A DNA stretch of 41,113 nt, from the NCBI GenBank assembly GCA_021323595.1, contig JAJPKR010000050.1:1-41113 (forward strand). The letters run 5' to 3'. This document shows, in pieces, positions 309-15,678 of the stretch. The position numbers and the translations under genes are program-made. The notes below the pieces were generated by a model. It was not told the origin of the DNA. It worked only from the letters and a program-made list of their open reading frames with translations, and did no database searches. The first letter of the stretch is position 1. Each line of letters starts with the position of its first letter. The stretch comes from Terriglobia bacterium (lineage in GTDB: Bacteria; Acidobacteriota; Terriglobia; Terriglobales; SCQP01).

Positions 309-578
309 ATGGGCAAATTACCGGTAGCGGGATTATCCGTGTTCTGCTTGGTGGCCGGGCTGACGACGAGTCTCTGGGCGGGTCATAAACGGGATTGGGC
401 GCCGGGCACCATCGTGGCCATGAAGTCCTCCGAGTGCGGCGCTCACGTGAGCGCAGGCAATTCGGTTCTGGGTACCGTGCTGGGCACGCAAGGGGAATCG
501 GCCAAGCGCCAGGTCGTGCTGTGCAAGGATTACACCTTGCGCACCGATTCGACCATTTACACAATCCGGCCCAAGTAG
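309..578 (+). CDS. Small exported protein, cut short by in-frame TAG
   Basis: This is an 89-residue product. The ATG at 309 is chosen because GAGGAGG (297-303) lies 5 bases upstream; a GTG at 303 in the same frame overlaps that site and is less likely. The N-terminus (about residues 1-24, ending SLWA) is a Sec-type signal peptide, so the product should be exported. The mature part has two Cys (in SSEC and VVLC) and a C-terminal stretch, DYTLRTDSTIYTIRPK, that looks like the first half of a small beta-rich domain seen, to my recollection, in short acidobacterial secreted proteins of unknown function. The frame ends at TAG 576-578 but stays open and protein-like for 49 more codons, so this is probably a truncated gene or one read through. 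Function is not known. Confidence 0.6.
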   Translation: MGKLPVAGLSVFCLVAGLTTSLWAGHKRDWAPGTIVAMKSSECGAHVSAGNSVLGTVLGTQGESAKRQVVLCKDYTLRTDSTIYTIRPK

Positions 579-728
579 CAAAACGCTGATTTGCTTCCCG
601 TCAACGCGGCGGTGGAGTTCTATATCGACAAAGACAAAATGAAGCTGCGCCGCGCCGACAGCAAGAAGCAGCAAGAATTCATGGTTCTGGCCGAGCTGCC
701 GGCCACGCCCGCCAAGACCGGCAATTAG
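579..728 (+). pseudogene. In-frame 3' continuation of the small exported protein
   Basis: Directly after TAG 576-578 the same frame continues for 49 codons to TAG 726-728. The translation is not random: it contains LLPVNAAVEFYIDKDKMKLR and then a Lys/Gln-rich segment and FMVLAELPA, and it reads as the natural second half of the upstream domain. One C-to-T change (CAG to TAG) would create the interruption. The 728 end also overlaps the stop of the convergent PIG-L gene (725-727), a tight tail-to-tail junction that fits the full frame having been the original gene of about 139 residues. Alternatives are real amber read-through or a sequencing error. Confidence 0.55.
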
Positions 729-3481
729 CGCCCCTCCGCCCCTCCGCGGGTGGTTTGCACGCGATCCCGGCCAGCGGCGTGTGGCGCTTTGGGCAACGAA
801 ACAAGGTTGGCAAGCAGGCGAAAGGCGCCGGGCACGCCTTGCGGCAACTGGCGATAGAGCGCCAGCGCCACGTAAACGTACACGCCGCGGCCATAATGCG
901 CGACCAGCAGCCCGCCCTCCTGCGGCGCCTGGCCCTGATCGTGGGTTTCGAGCAGCGGCTCGTACTGCGGCGCCCAACGATCCCAAAAGCCGTGCCCCCG
1001 CTCCTCGACCCAGTTGTCGAAATCGGCGGCGGTGATGTGGTTGGGGTAGGTGAAGATCGGCGAGGCGGGCTGGAGGATGCGCACCGGTTCTTCTTCTTGC
1101 GTCACGCGCGTGCCGCCGCTCATGTCGTAAGGGTACGGGCCGTAATCGTGATTCATTTCGCCGGTGTTGTACTGCACCACCAGCACGCCGCCATCGTGGA
1201 CGTATTGCAACAGCCGCTGGTTGAAGCGGCGCAGATCGTCGCGCGCGGCATAAGCGCGCACCCCCAACATGATCTCGTCATAACGGCGGAGGTCGCCGCT
1301 CGCCAACTCCTGCGGGCCAATGAGATGAACGTTGACGCCGAGCGTCGCCAGCGCTTGCGGCACTTCATCACCGGTGCCCATGACGTAGCCGAGGCGCAGG
1401 TCGGGTGCGACCCGCACGGGAACGCCAATGGCCCGCGTCGCCGCCGGCTGATAAAAGGGATAGGGGCGAATGCCGTCATAGCCGACCATGCGGTAGCCTT
1501 CGCCGAAGTCGCGGCCGCCGAGTTGTGCCTGCGCGGATAGGACGTACGTGCCGGCGGCGATAGCGCCCGGCGAGATCACGAACTGCTGCGTCGCCTCCGC
1601 GCCCAATCGCGGCAGCGTGAATTGGGCCGCGGCCGGCGCGCTTCTCCAGCCGGGGGGGAGCTGCAAGCGCAAAGTCCCATTCGCCGGACCGTTGACGTTG
1701 CTCGCCAATTCCGCGGTGACGGTGAAAGACGCAGTGGCGCCGCCGCCGCCGATCGGAACCACGGCGGCGCGAGGCAGCAACGAGACCGAGAGCTCCGGAC
1801 CGACCAGGAGAGGCAGAAGGACTTGGCCGAGACCCGTCTCGTGCCGGGACGTAAGCACGACGCGGCGCACCCTTACCGGCACGCCGTCCACGGAGAGAGT
1901 CACGACTGCGTGCAGCGGGTAAGGCGCGAACGGCCGCAGAATGTCCTGCGGCACCGCCAGTTGATACCACGACTCCTCGACCGAAGCGCGCGGCTTCCAA
2001 TAGGGCCGCGTGTAAGCGGCATCGGCGGGCACATTGACTTGAAACGACCAACTCGAGACGTCTTCGCCGGAGATGGCACCGGACGTTGCCGGGCGCAGGG
2101 CGGAGATCGTGGCGCGTTGCCCCGGCTTCCACTGGGCATCCAAGACGACCGAGCTGACCTGCACCGGCAGAGGGGAACGGCTGGAAACATCGACGGTGAC
2201 GCCGAACCGCGAGCCCGGCACCGCGATACGCAGCGTGTCACTCCAGGCGAAGCGGGCGAAAAAGCCAGTCGGCTGGCGTTCCGGCTGGACCATGGGCAGC
2301 ACTTGCACGCCCAGCGCGTCGGCGATCGCCGTTTGAAACTGCTGTTCTTTCAGCGCCAACTCGGCGCCAATATCGGCTCGCGGTTCTGGGGCGATCTCGG
2401 TCGCCGCGCTCAGCCGCTGCTCGAGCGCGCGCGTTTGCTCCAGCCCGCGCGCCAGCGCGGGGACGCAATCGGCGGGCGCGGTCATGCGGAAGGCGGCGGT
2501 GGCGGCGCTAACCTGCTCCGCGATCCGGCGCAGGCCAGCGGCCAGCCAGGCTGGCGGATGCGAGCCGGCCCAGGCGGCCAGCCCGGGCAAGGTGGTGTCT
2601 ACGCCGGCGAAGAAGCCACGCTCGTGATCGGCGCCGGCCGGGTCGGGCGCCAGCCGCTTGTAATAGCTGTCGTAAGCGCCGGGGTGGGCGATCGCGCCGC
2701 CGCCGTATTGGCTGACATGCTGCCACCAGCCTTGGCGCGCGATCTCGATATAGGTCTCGCCGAGCACGGGATCGTAGGCGCCCTCGGGAACCGCCACATT
2801 CCAGACTTCTTGGCGGCGAACGTTATCCATGTACAGCTTGCGTGCGCGCCACGGCCGCAGGCCTTCGCGCAATTGCTCGGGAAATTGCCGGGGATCGGCG
2901 GCGGCGGCGAAAGCCGCGCGCGCTAGAATGCCGGCCATCTGGTGATGCGCGTGGCCGTCGCGCGGCTTGCCCTGAAAACGCGACAAGATCACCAGCGGCC
3001 GGAAGGTGCGGATGGCGCGCACCACGTCGCCCAACACCCGCTGCTCGCCCCATTTTCGCCGCGCCTCGTCCACGGAACGCGAGTAGCCGTAATCCACGGC
3101 GCGAGTGAACATCTGCGTGGAAACGCCGTAGAAGCGATCGGCGTCCAGCACCTCGCGCGTGCGCAGCAGGCCGGCGGCATCGAAGTAATCGTCGTTGATG
3201 ACGTTTTGGCCGCCTTCCCCGCGCGTCAGCGTCAGCAGCCCCATGCGCACGCCCTGGCCGCGCGCCTCGTAGGTCAGCATGCCGCCATCTTCGTCGTCGG
3301 GATGAGCGGTGATTTGCAAGGCGCTGGCGGTGGTCGCCAGCTGCTTGAGCATCTGCCAAGTGCCGGCGGCGCCGCGGTCGATCGGCAAGGGCAAGACCGC
3401 GGAGCCAAGCCAGTCGAAGTTTTGCGCGGCCGCCAATACCACCACGACCGCGAGCACCGCCGGCAAAGTCCGAATGCGCAT
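725..3481 (-). CDS. Secreted PIG-L (LmbE) family deacetylase, large form
   Basis: This is a 918-residue protein with a hydrophobic N-terminal signal segment (about residues 1-20) and then a PIG-L/LmbE domain. The family is made of zinc-dependent N-acetylglucosamine-type deacetylases. The hallmark AHPDDE lies at residues 59-64, LTRGEGGQN at about 85-93, and the zinc-ligand HAHHQMAG segment follows. The long C-terminal part (roughly 450-918) has beta-sandwich-like sequence and then a flavodoxin/GATase-like segment with GVRAYAARDDLRR and LLQYVHDGGVLVVQYNTG. This architecture is common in Acidobacteriota; the natural substrate is unknown. The frame is open upstream to 3952, but that would overlap metH, and the ATG at 3481 places the signal peptide at the N-terminus. 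No clear Shine-Dalgarno is seen. It is divergent from metH. Confidence 0.8.
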   Translation of the reverse strand: MRIRTLPAVLAVVVVLAAAQNFDWLGSAVLPLPIDRGAAGTWQMLKQLATTASALQITAHPDDEDGGMLTYEARGQGVRMGLLTLTRGEGGQNVINDDYFDAAGLLRTREVLDADRFYGVSTQMFTRAVDYGYSRSVDEARRKWGEQRVLGDVVRAIRTFRPLVILSRFQGKPRDGHAHHQMAGILARAAFAAAADPRQFPEQLREGLRPWRARKLYMDNVRRQEVWNVAVPEGAYDPVLGETYIEIARQGWWQHVSQYGGGAIAHPGAYDSYYKRLAPDPAGADHERGFFAGVDTTLPGLAAWAGSHPPAWLAAGLRRIAEQVSAATAAFRMTAPADCVPALARGLEQTRALEQRLSAATEIAPEPRADIGAELALKEQQFQTAIADALGVQVLPMVQPERQPTGFFARFAWSDTLRIAVPGSRFGVTVDVSSRSPLPVQVSSVVLDAQWKPGQRATISALRPATSGAISGEDVSSWSFQVNVPADAAYTRPYWKPRASVEESWYQLAVPQDILRPFAPYPLHAVVTLSVDGVPVRVRRVVLTSRHETGLGQVLLPLLVGPELSVSLLPRAAVVPIGGGGATASFTVTAELASNVNGPANGTLRLQLPPGWRSAPAAAQFTLPRLGAEATQQFVISPGAIAAGTYVLSAQAQLGGRDFGEGYRMVGYDGIRPYPFYQPAATRAIGVPVRVAPDLRLGYVMGTGDEVPQALATLGVNVHLIGPQELASGDLRRYDEIMLGVRAYAARDDLRRFNQRLLQYVHDGGVLVVQYNTGEMNHDYGPYPYDMSGGTRVTQEEEPVRILQPASPIFTYPNHITAADFDNWVEERGHGFWDRWAPQYEPLLETHDQGQAPQEGGLLVAHYGRGVYVYVALALYRQLPQGVPGAFRLLANLVSLPKAPHAAGRDRVQTTRGGAEGR

Positions 3482-3601
3482 GGAAGCATCATTGTGCCAC
3501 GCCGATGCTTGCCTTCGCCGCGCCGGATGCGAGGGCGCCGGCCCTGGTTGCCGGGATGGCCCCCTGCCGGCCGCGGGCCGATGCGGGCCGGAAACGCCGC
3601 T

Positions 3602-3613
3602 TAAAATTGATAG
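3602..3613 (+). promoter_or_regulatory. metH -10 element, leaderless arrangement
   Basis: TAAAAT at 3602-3607 is followed by exactly six bases and then the metH ATG (3614). With the usual 6-7 base distance, transcription would start at the A of the start codon, giving a leaderless mRNA. No Shine-Dalgarno is present and no consensus -35 is visible. Confidence 0.5.
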
Positions 3614-6600
3614 ATGCTCACCGCCGCCGAACGCCTGGAAGCGCTGCACGCCGCGCTCGCGGAGCGCCTGCTCGTGCTCGACGGCGCGATGGGCACGATG
3701 ATCCAGCAGCGCCATCTCACTGCCGCCGACTTCGGCGGCGACGCGTTCGAGGGCTGCAACGAATTGCTGGTGCAAACCCGCCCCGACGTCATCACGGCGA
3801 TTCATCGCGAATATCTCGACGCCGGCGCCGATCTCATCGAAACCGATACCTTCGGCGCGACACGCATCGTCCTGGCCGAATACGGCCGCGCCGCCGAGGC
3901 CCGCGCCCTGAACCTGGCGGCCGCGCAGTTGGCGCGCCAGGCCGCCGATCAAGCCGCCGCCGGCGGGCGGCCGCGCTGGGTGGCGGGCTCGATGGGCCCG
4001 ACCACGAAGTCGATCACCGTCACCGGCGGCGTGACCTTTACCGAGCTCGAAGAGACCTTTTACGAACAGGCGCTAGGGTTGGTCGAAGGCGGTGTGGATC
4101 TGCTGCTGGTCGAAACCTGCCAGGACACGCGCAACATCAAAGCGGCGCTGCTGGCGATCGCGCGGGTGCGGGCGCAAACCGGCCGTCCCGTGCCGGTCAT
4201 GATCTCCGGCACCATCGAGCCGACGGGCACGATGCTGGCCGGCCAGAACGCCGAGGCGCTGTGGGTGTCGCTGGCGCATGCGGACTTGCTTTCGATCGGG
4301 TTGAACTGCGCCACCGGTCCGGAGTTCATGACCGACCACGTGCGCACGCTGGCGACGATGAGCCCGCGCTACGTCTCCTGCTACCCCAACGCCGGCCTGC
4401 CCAACGAAGATGGCAAGTATGGCGAAACGCCCGAGAGCTTCGCGGCGCAACTGGCGCGCTTTGCCGACCACGGCTGGCTCAATATTGTCGGCGGCTGCTG
4501 CGGCACCACGCCGGCGCACATCCGTGCCGTCGCGGCGATGGCGGCGGGGCGGCCGCCCCGCCGTCCCCCGGCGCCCAGCCACCGGGCGTTCTACTCGGGC
4601 ATCGAGGCCATTGAGGCCGAGGAGAGCGCGCGGCCGCTGTTGGTCGGCGAGCGCACCAACGTCATCGGCTCGCGCGCGTTCAAGGAGCTGATCGCCGCCG
4701 AGCAATGGGAAGAGGCGAGCGAAATCGGCCGCCGGCAGGTGAAAAACGGCGCCCAGATCGTGGACGTTTGCCTGCAGAGCACCGAGCGTGACGAGCGTAA
4801 GGACATCCCGCCGTTCTACGAAAGGCTGATCCGTAAGATCAAGGCGCCCGTGATGATCGACACCACCGATCCCGCCTCGATCGAGCTGGCGCTGACCTAT
4901 TGCCAGGGCAAGAGCCTGATCAACTCCATCAATCTGGAAGATGGCGAAGAGAAGTTGCAGCGGGTCTGCCCGCTGGCGCGCCGTTACGGGGCCGCGATCG
5001 TCGCGGGCTGCATCGATGAGGACCCGACGCAGGCGCAGGCCTTCACTCGCGAGCGCAAGCTGGAAGTGGCGCGGCGCACGGTGCGGCTGATGACCGGAAA
5101 GTATGGCATTCCGCCCGAGGACATCATCATCGACCCGCTGGTGTTTCCTTGCGCCACCGGCGACGAAAACTACATTGGCGGCGCGGTCGAAACCATCGAG
5201 GGCGTGCGCGCGGTGCGGCAGGAGATTCCTTATGTCAAGACGGTGCTGGGAATATCGAATATCTCCTTCGGCCTGCCGCCGGCGGCGCGCGAGGTCGTCA
5301 ACTCGGTTTTCCTTTATCACTGCACCAAGGCCGGCCTCGATCTCGCCATCGTCAACAGTGAAAAGATCGAGCGCTTCGCCTCGATCCCCGAGCAGGAGCG
5401 GCGGCTAGCCGAAGATCTGCTGTTCAACTATCCTCCGGCGGTGGTGCCGGACGGCCACCCCGACGCCCCGCTTCTGCGCGGCGCGCCGGCCGATTGGCGC
5501 GAGCAGACGCGCGAGCAAAAGATCGCGATCAACCAGTTCCACATTGCGGCGCTGACCGAGCACTTCCGCGGTGCTGCAAAGCAGCGGAAGGCAGCCGCCG
5601 ATCTGCCGCTCGACGAGCGCCTGGCGCGCTACATCATCGAAGGCGTCAAGGATGGCCTGGTCGCCGATCTCGACCGCAAGCTCGCGGAAGGCGCCGCCCC
5701 CCTGGAGATCATCAACGGCCCGCTCATGGCGGGAATGAACGAGGTCGGCCGCCTCTTCAACAACAACGAACTGATCGTGGCCGAGGTTTTGCAATCGGCC
5801 GAGGCGATGAAAGCCGCCGTCAGCTATCTTGAGCGCTTCATGGAGAAAACCGAGTCGGCGCGCAAGGGCACGATCATCCTCGCCACGGTCAAGGGCGACG
5901 TGCACGATATCGGCAAGAACTTGGTCGAGATCATCCTCGCCAACAACGGCTTTCAAGTCGTCAATCTCGGGATCAAAGTACCGCCCGAGACGCTGATCGA
6001 GGCCTGGCAGCGGCATCAGCCCGACGCCATCGGGCTCTCCGGACTGCTGGTGAAAAGCGCGCAGCAGATGGTGATCACGGCCGGTGACCTGCGCGAAGCG
6101 GGCGTGGACGTGCCGCTGCTGGTCGGCGGCGCCGCGCTCTCCGACCGCTTCACGCGCAGCCGCATCGCCCCCAACTACCATCTGCCCGTCTGCTACGCCA
6201 AGGACGCGATGTCGGGACTGGCGCTGATGAACGAGTGGATGGACCCGTCGCGGCGCGAGGCGCTAGCGGCGCGGCACGCCCCGCAGGCCGCGGCCGCCGC
6301 GCCCTCCGCCGTGGCGGAGCCGGCGCCCATGCCGGCCGCGCGCAGCTCCAAAGTGCGGGCGGACCTGCCCATTCCGCCGGTGGCGTCGCTCGCGCGGCAC
6401 CAGCGCGATGTGCCGCAGCTTGAGGAGATCTGGAGCTATATCAATCCCCAGGTGCTCTATCGCCACCACCTCGGCTTCAAGGGCAACTTCGAAGTCGCCC
6501 TGCGCGAGCGCGACCCGCAAGCGCTGGAGCTGGTGGCCCTGGTCGAGCAGCTCAAGCGCTCCGCCGCGGAGTTCATGAAGGTGCGCGCGGTATGGCAGTT

Positions 6601-13725: not shown

Positions 13726-15678
13726 GTGCCGGCCCCTGCTAATCCGCTGCCGATTTCGCTCACGGTGGGCACCGCCGGCCACATCGATCATGGCAAGAGC
13801 GCGTTGATCGAAGCGTTGACGGGAACCCATCCCGATCGACTCGCGGAAGAGCAGCGGCGCGGGATTACGATTGACCTCGGCTTCGCCCATCTCGGGCTCT
13901 CCGCGGCCGACGGGCGGCGCGTGCAGATCGGCTTCATTGACGTGCCGGGCCATGAGCGGTTTGTTCGCAACATGCTGGCCGGCGCCGGCGGGATCGAACT
14001 GGTGCTGCTCGTGGTGGCGGCGGATGAGGGCGTGAAGCCGCAGACCCGCGAGCACTTCCAGATTTGCCGCCTGCTCGGCATCGAGCGCGGCATCGTGGCG
14101 CTGACCAAATGTGATTTGGCCGACGCCGAAACCCGTACTCTGGCCGCCGCTGAAATCGCCGATCTGGTGCGCGGCTCATTCTTGGAGGGCGCGCCGGTCA
14201 TCCCGGTCAGCGCCAAGACCGGCGCCGGGCTCGAAGAACTGCGGCAAGCGCTGGCCGCGGCGGCCGTGAAGGTCAAGGGACGCGCCAGCATGGGGCCGGC
14301 GCGGCTGCCGCTGGATCGCGTCTTCAGCCTGCGCGGCTTCGGGACCGTCGTGACCGGCACGCTGCTGGCCGGCCAAATCGCCGTCGAGAGCGAGTTGGAG
14401 GTGCTGGCGCCGCGCGGCCTTCGGCGCCTGCGCGTGCGCGGCGTCCAGGTGCACGGGCAGCCCGTCGAACGGGCGTTGGCAGGGCAGCGCACGGCTATCA
14501 ACTTGGCCGGCGTCGAGCCGGCCGCCTTGGCCCGCGGCCTGGTGCTGGCCGAGCCGGGCGTGTTTCGGTGCAGCGCGCGGCTGACCGTGGATCTGGAGTT
14601 GCTGGTTTCGGCGCCGCCGCTGAAGTCGGGCGCGCCGCTCCATCTGCATGCGCTCAGCGCCGAGACGGTCGCGCGCGTAACTCTTTTCGACGCGCCGCGC
14701 TTAGCCTCGGGCAGCCGCGGTTTGGCGCGGCTGCGCCTGGCCGAGCCGCTGCCGCTCATTCCCGGCGACCGGTTCATCGTGCGGCAATTTTCGCCCTTGA
14801 CCACGATCGGCGGCGGGCGCGTGCTGGCCACCGATGCGCTGCGCCTGCCCGCTAACGATGCGCCCGCGCGTGCGCAGGCGCTGGCGCGACTGGCTGCCGC
14901 CGGCGCCGAAGAACACTTGCAGCTCTGGCTCGAGGCCGCGGGCCTGGACGGGCTCACTCCTGCCGCCCTCGGTTTGGCGTTGGGCCGGCGCGCGGCCGAG
15001 GTCGCCGCCGATCTCGCCAGGCTCGAGGCCGCGGGCCGCGTGGTTCTGGCCGGGTCCGCCGCGCTCAGCCGCGCCGCCGCGCAGGCGTGGGAGCAGGCCA
15101 TTCTCGCGGCGCTGGCCGCCTTTCACGCCGGTGAGCGGCTCGTGCCCGCGATCGGCGCCGACACGTTGCGCGGCCGCCTGCAGCCGGCACGGCTGCGGCG
15201 GCCCGAGCAGGCGCTGGTCTATCGCGCCATATTGCAGAAGCTCATCGCCGCCGGGCGCGTGGAAACCGCCGGCGAGGGCGTGCGCTTGCCCGGGCAAGGG
15301 CCGCGGCTCGACGCCGGCGAAAGCGAGGCGCGGCAGCGCATCGAGGCCGCCTTCCGCGCCGCCGGTTTGCGCGCGCCCGCCGTGGACTCGGTGCTGGCGC
15401 AATGCCGGGTCGAGAGCCGCCGCGCCGCGCAACTGCTGCAATTGCTCCTGCGCGACGGCAGCCTGATCAAGATCAACGAAGAGTTGATCTTGCATCGCGC
15501 GGCGCTCGAGGAGCTGCGCCGGAGCTTGGCGGAACGCAAAAAGACGGCGCCGCGCCTGAGCGTGCCCGCCTTCAAGCAATTGACCGGCGTCACCCGCAAG
15601 TACGCGATCCCGCTTCTCGAATACCTCGATCGCGTTCACGTCACCCGCCGCGTCGGCGACGACCGGGAAATCCTGTAG
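13726..15678 (+). CDS. selB: Selenocysteine-specific elongation factor SelB
   Basis: A 650-residue translational GTPase that delivers selenocysteyl-tRNA to in-frame UGA codons marked by a SECIS hairpin. The GTPase motifs are G1 GHIDHGKS (18-25), the switch [13 protein letters not shown]3 DVPGHERF (D72), G4 TKCD (127-130, a Thr variant of NKxD common in SelB) and SAKTG. Domains II and III follow to about 340, then the four winged-helix repeats of the SECIS-binding C-terminus, ending [29 protein letters not shown]. It starts with GTG at 13726. No selA, selD or tRNA-Sec is in the window, so the rest of the pathway must lie elsewhere. Confidence 0.96.

Follow-up and report, generated by a model that had tools for sequence, protein, structure and literature searches.

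As in pyrrolysine and amber-suppressing systems, an in-frame UAG is followed by coding sequence at the locus described here. Programmed read-through of UAG is exemplified by the UAG-CAR-YYA of tobamoviruses, and in the present gene CAA likewise directly follows the UAG. With nonsense-mutation pseudogenes the locus has in common a single in-frame stop, intact relatives, a gene that appears dispensable, and normal termination at UAG. The gene is probably a recent nonsense allele of a single-copy, dispensable exported-protein gene, that is, a young pseudogene.

The window, meaning the whole stretch of 41,113 nucleotides that was analysed, is one contig (C14) of a 65-contig genome of 3.55 Mb (G000) that is 97.6% complete, and the site lies near the start of this contig. 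The exported-protein gene, which has a copy number of one in the genome, opens with an ATG at position 309 that is preceded by GAGGAGGTG, with a Shine-Dalgarno-like GGAGG just upstream, and comprises 140 codons in the read-through frame. A single frame is kept throughout. The first 89 codons (309 to 575, plus strand) correspond to a signal peptide and the first half of the mature domain, as judged from the sequence, its translation, homology, and model strands; an in-frame TAG (576 to 578) occupies codon 90; a further 49 codons (579 to 725) carry the second half of the domain with the frame intact, according to homology, coding score, and model strands; and the original terminator, also TAG, is located at 726 to 728, with same-family homologues ending within a few residues on either side. 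An earlier note on this DNA had reported an in-frame TAG interrupting an exported-protein gene, and its coordinates and codon counts were correct when checked against the sequence and translation. The tail-to-tail overlap with the next gene was also recovered, the stop of a minus-strand ORF (725 to 3952) lying at 727-725 and giving an overlap of four bases. This ORF was named PIG-L-deacetylase-like from an HPDDEDGG motif recognised by reading and not by a profile match, and its true start is probably some 157 codons inside the open frame. No match to this neighbour was found beside the relatives' copies of the exported-protein gene, and there was no synteny.

Homologues were sought in 14 genomes of the family, where the gene was found in eight other genomes, and in 299 genomes of the class, where it was found in 41 genomes besides the window's own. 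A same-family alignment search returned five loci in four metagenome-assembled Acidobacteria genomes, and a search of the contig collection with a single protein as query returned no match. Whole copies from the family search aligned across the stop position without a break, the same-family alignments spanning residues 6 to 136 with no stop and with starts that varied between residues 4 and 16. The TAG column held a sense codon in 37 of 37 aligned homologues, eight of them from the same family; the residue was Asp in 31 (GAC 23, GAT 8), Glu in two, Thr in two, Val in one, and Gln in one. All 37 extend beyond this column across the LLP and K-D-K-M/L blocks and have their C-terminus near 726, and TAG at the codon-90 column is unique to the window's genome and is not conserved. 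The earlier note had considered that homologues might all end at the TAG, and none of those aligned does so; its statement that 49 protein-like codons after the TAG complete the upstream domain is borne out by homologues that align across the stop and by a coding score that is positive in their own frame only. The CAG to TAG change that it had proposed is only partly borne out: CAG is a plausible ancestral codon at 576-578 given that the sole Gln in this column is encoded by CAG in a genome of the same family (G001), but most relatives carry Asp (GAC or GAT) and the ancestral codon is therefore not settled. Identity to the same-family copies was 37-56% in the part upstream of the stop and 39-43% in the part downstream; pairs of intact homologues gave similar ratios between the two parts, so that no relaxation of constraint past the stop can be detected.

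The coding score of the 49 codons after the TAG was +22 in their own frame, compared with -30 and -39 in the two alternative frames of the forward strand. Because this codon score is rough (it missed the PIG-L-like neighbour and broke up the exported-protein gene), the argument is carried by homology. A scan for further in-frame TAGs covered the window and 20 other stretches (383 kb in all, or roughly 11% of the genome), and no comparable coding extension past another stop was present in this sample once two ordinary neighbouring genes had been set aside. These were the two strong post-stop extensions, one being rpoC after rpoB and the other a gene that follows a TGA and is cut by the end of its stretch. 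The search for other in-frame TAGs that the earlier note had suggested gave no second case of a gene coding past a TAG in the 383 kb.

UAG is an ordinary stop codon in this genome, and recoding of UAG is not supported. RF1 is intact (531 bits) with an unbroken reading frame, and the stops of 314 predicted genes in the window and the 20 stretches were TAG in 118 (about 38%), TGA in 142, and TAA in 54. The TAG-ended genes include selB, purC, carA, and carB in the window, all named by reading, and rpoB outside it. Among 43 tRNAs, found with Rfam models in the 97.6% complete genome and with anticodons read using ARAGORN, none had a CUA anticodon, and the suppressor or pyrrolysine tRNA suggested in the earlier note was accordingly not among them. 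The best matches to PylS, at 30 and 20 bits, fell short of the cut-off of 178; in the control, matches were obtained in 13 of 14 genomes and only one of them exceeded it. Positions 13765-15678 of the window encode a selenocysteine elongation factor resembling SelB, as recognised by reading, and in view of this gene UGA recoding may occur in the genome.

The contig begins with a repeat (1 to 107) in which TGTCACCCATGT occurs twice in direct orientation. This segment is identical to the ends of two other contigs of the same genome (C34:1-106 and C35:1-107), and related repeat ends were found at four more contig ends (C33, C20, C21, and C4), making seven places in total. The repeat is probably an insertion-element terminus, with the element type inferred. 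Several copies are immediate neighbours of tRNA genes (Ser on C35, Leu on C20, and Arg on C21), and on C4 an ORF for a phage-integrase-like recombinase, recognised by reading, is located about 370 bases from the repeat. In the window the end of the repeat is about 200 bp upstream of the exported-protein gene. No sigma-70-like promoter was seen in positions 1-800, though promoter scans are a weak test.

A model of the read-through protein was built from a five-sequence alignment and had a mean pLDDT of 71, with values below 50 in residues 1-25 and 47-64. It contains six strands (31-46, 68-78, 82-88, 101-107, 110-115, and 121-131), and the intact protein is predicted to be a small exported beta-rich protein with function unassigned. 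Two same-family copies, L009 (G005) and L010 (G006), are without model positions 49-63, which make up the loop that joins strand 1 to strand 2 and are also of low model confidence. No Pfam or NCBIfam family was assigned to the protein and its relatives, save one weak beta-barrel match in one of 11, and a Foldseek search of the model gave no match under an E-value of 0.3. A likeness to PmrD reached a best VIA-align Z of 6.8; common small beta arrangements give scores in this range, and for this reason no function is claimed from the fold search. Nothing specific to this protein or case was found in the literature. Since the stop at codon 90 removes strands 4-6 of the modelled six, the 89-residue product that remains is without half the domain; judging from the model, it most likely does not fold and would be non-functional.

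The gene was not found by protein and profile searches in the sister genus g6 (none of five genomes, two of them at least 95% complete). A homologue from another family of the class (L039, G295:C14:23657-23986, minus strand) is interrupted independently by an in-frame TAG elsewhere in the gene (KDKL*LRDPEG); the same genome also has a second copy without the stop. Loss of the gene therefore seems to be tolerated, and from these comparisons the gene appears dispensable in the lineage.

Among the explanations offered in the earlier note, a nonsense mutation is the best supported, and an assembly or base-call error is possible but unlikely. The latter, in which the organism would have a sense codon and an intact gene, is the main rival because the reads were not examinable and the site is near the contig end: 576 bases separate the codon from this end, where the assembly breaks in a repeat, the same-family metagenome assemblies have coverage of about 1.3 to 4 (figures that belong to the relatives and not to the window's genome), and the remainder of the gene looks wholly intact. 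However, the frame is free of indels and shows no other fault, and in general genuine pseudogenes are more frequent in a genome than single consensus errors that happen to create a nonsense codon. The remaining option of the earlier note, suppression, read-through, or pyrrolysine insertion, was contradicted by every test run. Production of some full-length protein by read-through of UAG-CAA, through near-cognate decoding or an unseen suppressor tRNA, is very improbable. The second half is intact in frame, and the base after the TAG is C, which is commonly regarded as a weak termination context; yet C is the commonest base after natural TAG stops (64 of 118), RF1 is intact and no CUA tRNA was found, the RNA fold after the TAG was no better than that of shuffled sequence (z -0.21) and so not unusually stable, the site is not conserved beyond the window's genome, and the real terminator of the gene is also TAG. 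We give still less credence to the 89-residue truncated protein being itself the functional product, for although it keeps the signal peptide, both conserved Cys residues (43 and 72), and three strands, the conserved LLP block and the KDKM motif fall after the stop and no aligned homologue ends at codon 90. Least probable of all is read-through at a useful level, whether through near-cognate decoding or through a suppressor tRNA encoded in sequence missing from the assembly, that would yield both short and full-length exported proteins; if true, the gene would be a natural case of UAG read-through in a bacterium, apart from those in phages and in users of pyrrolysine.

Under the preferred reading, a young nonsense pseudogene, a single-copy dispensable gene would recently have gained a premature UAG at which RF1 would terminate, leaving the 89-residue product; as a guess, the probable insertion element upstream may have displaced the promoter and so weakened selection. 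The change is taken to be recent because there is no frameshift and the coding character after the stop is undiminished. Against this reading, there is no decay beyond the single codon, and the only sign of lost function is the stop itself.

The observation holds, but it is an ordinary one. The case itself matters little, being one more dispensable gene in early decay or else a base-call error, and it carries the caution that, where the release factor, the tRNAs, and the use of stop codons are all normal, a frame that stays intact past a stop should not be taken as evidence of recoding. Compared with pyrrolysine and amber-suppressing systems, the window's genome differs in having no PylS above the cut-off and no CUA tRNA, in using UAG as a common terminator where avoidance would be expected, in having no series of internal UAGs (in the sample of about 11% of the genome), and in a site that is unconserved. 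Compared with the tobamovirus signal, the gene differs in that the codon after CAA is AAC and not YYA, in the lack of a stimulatory structure or context, and in the lack of a conserved stop. With nonsense-mutation pseudogenes, in contrast, there is no essential difference: every aligned homologue has a sense codon at the position, the host terminates at UAG, and the gene appears to be one that its lineage can dispense with.
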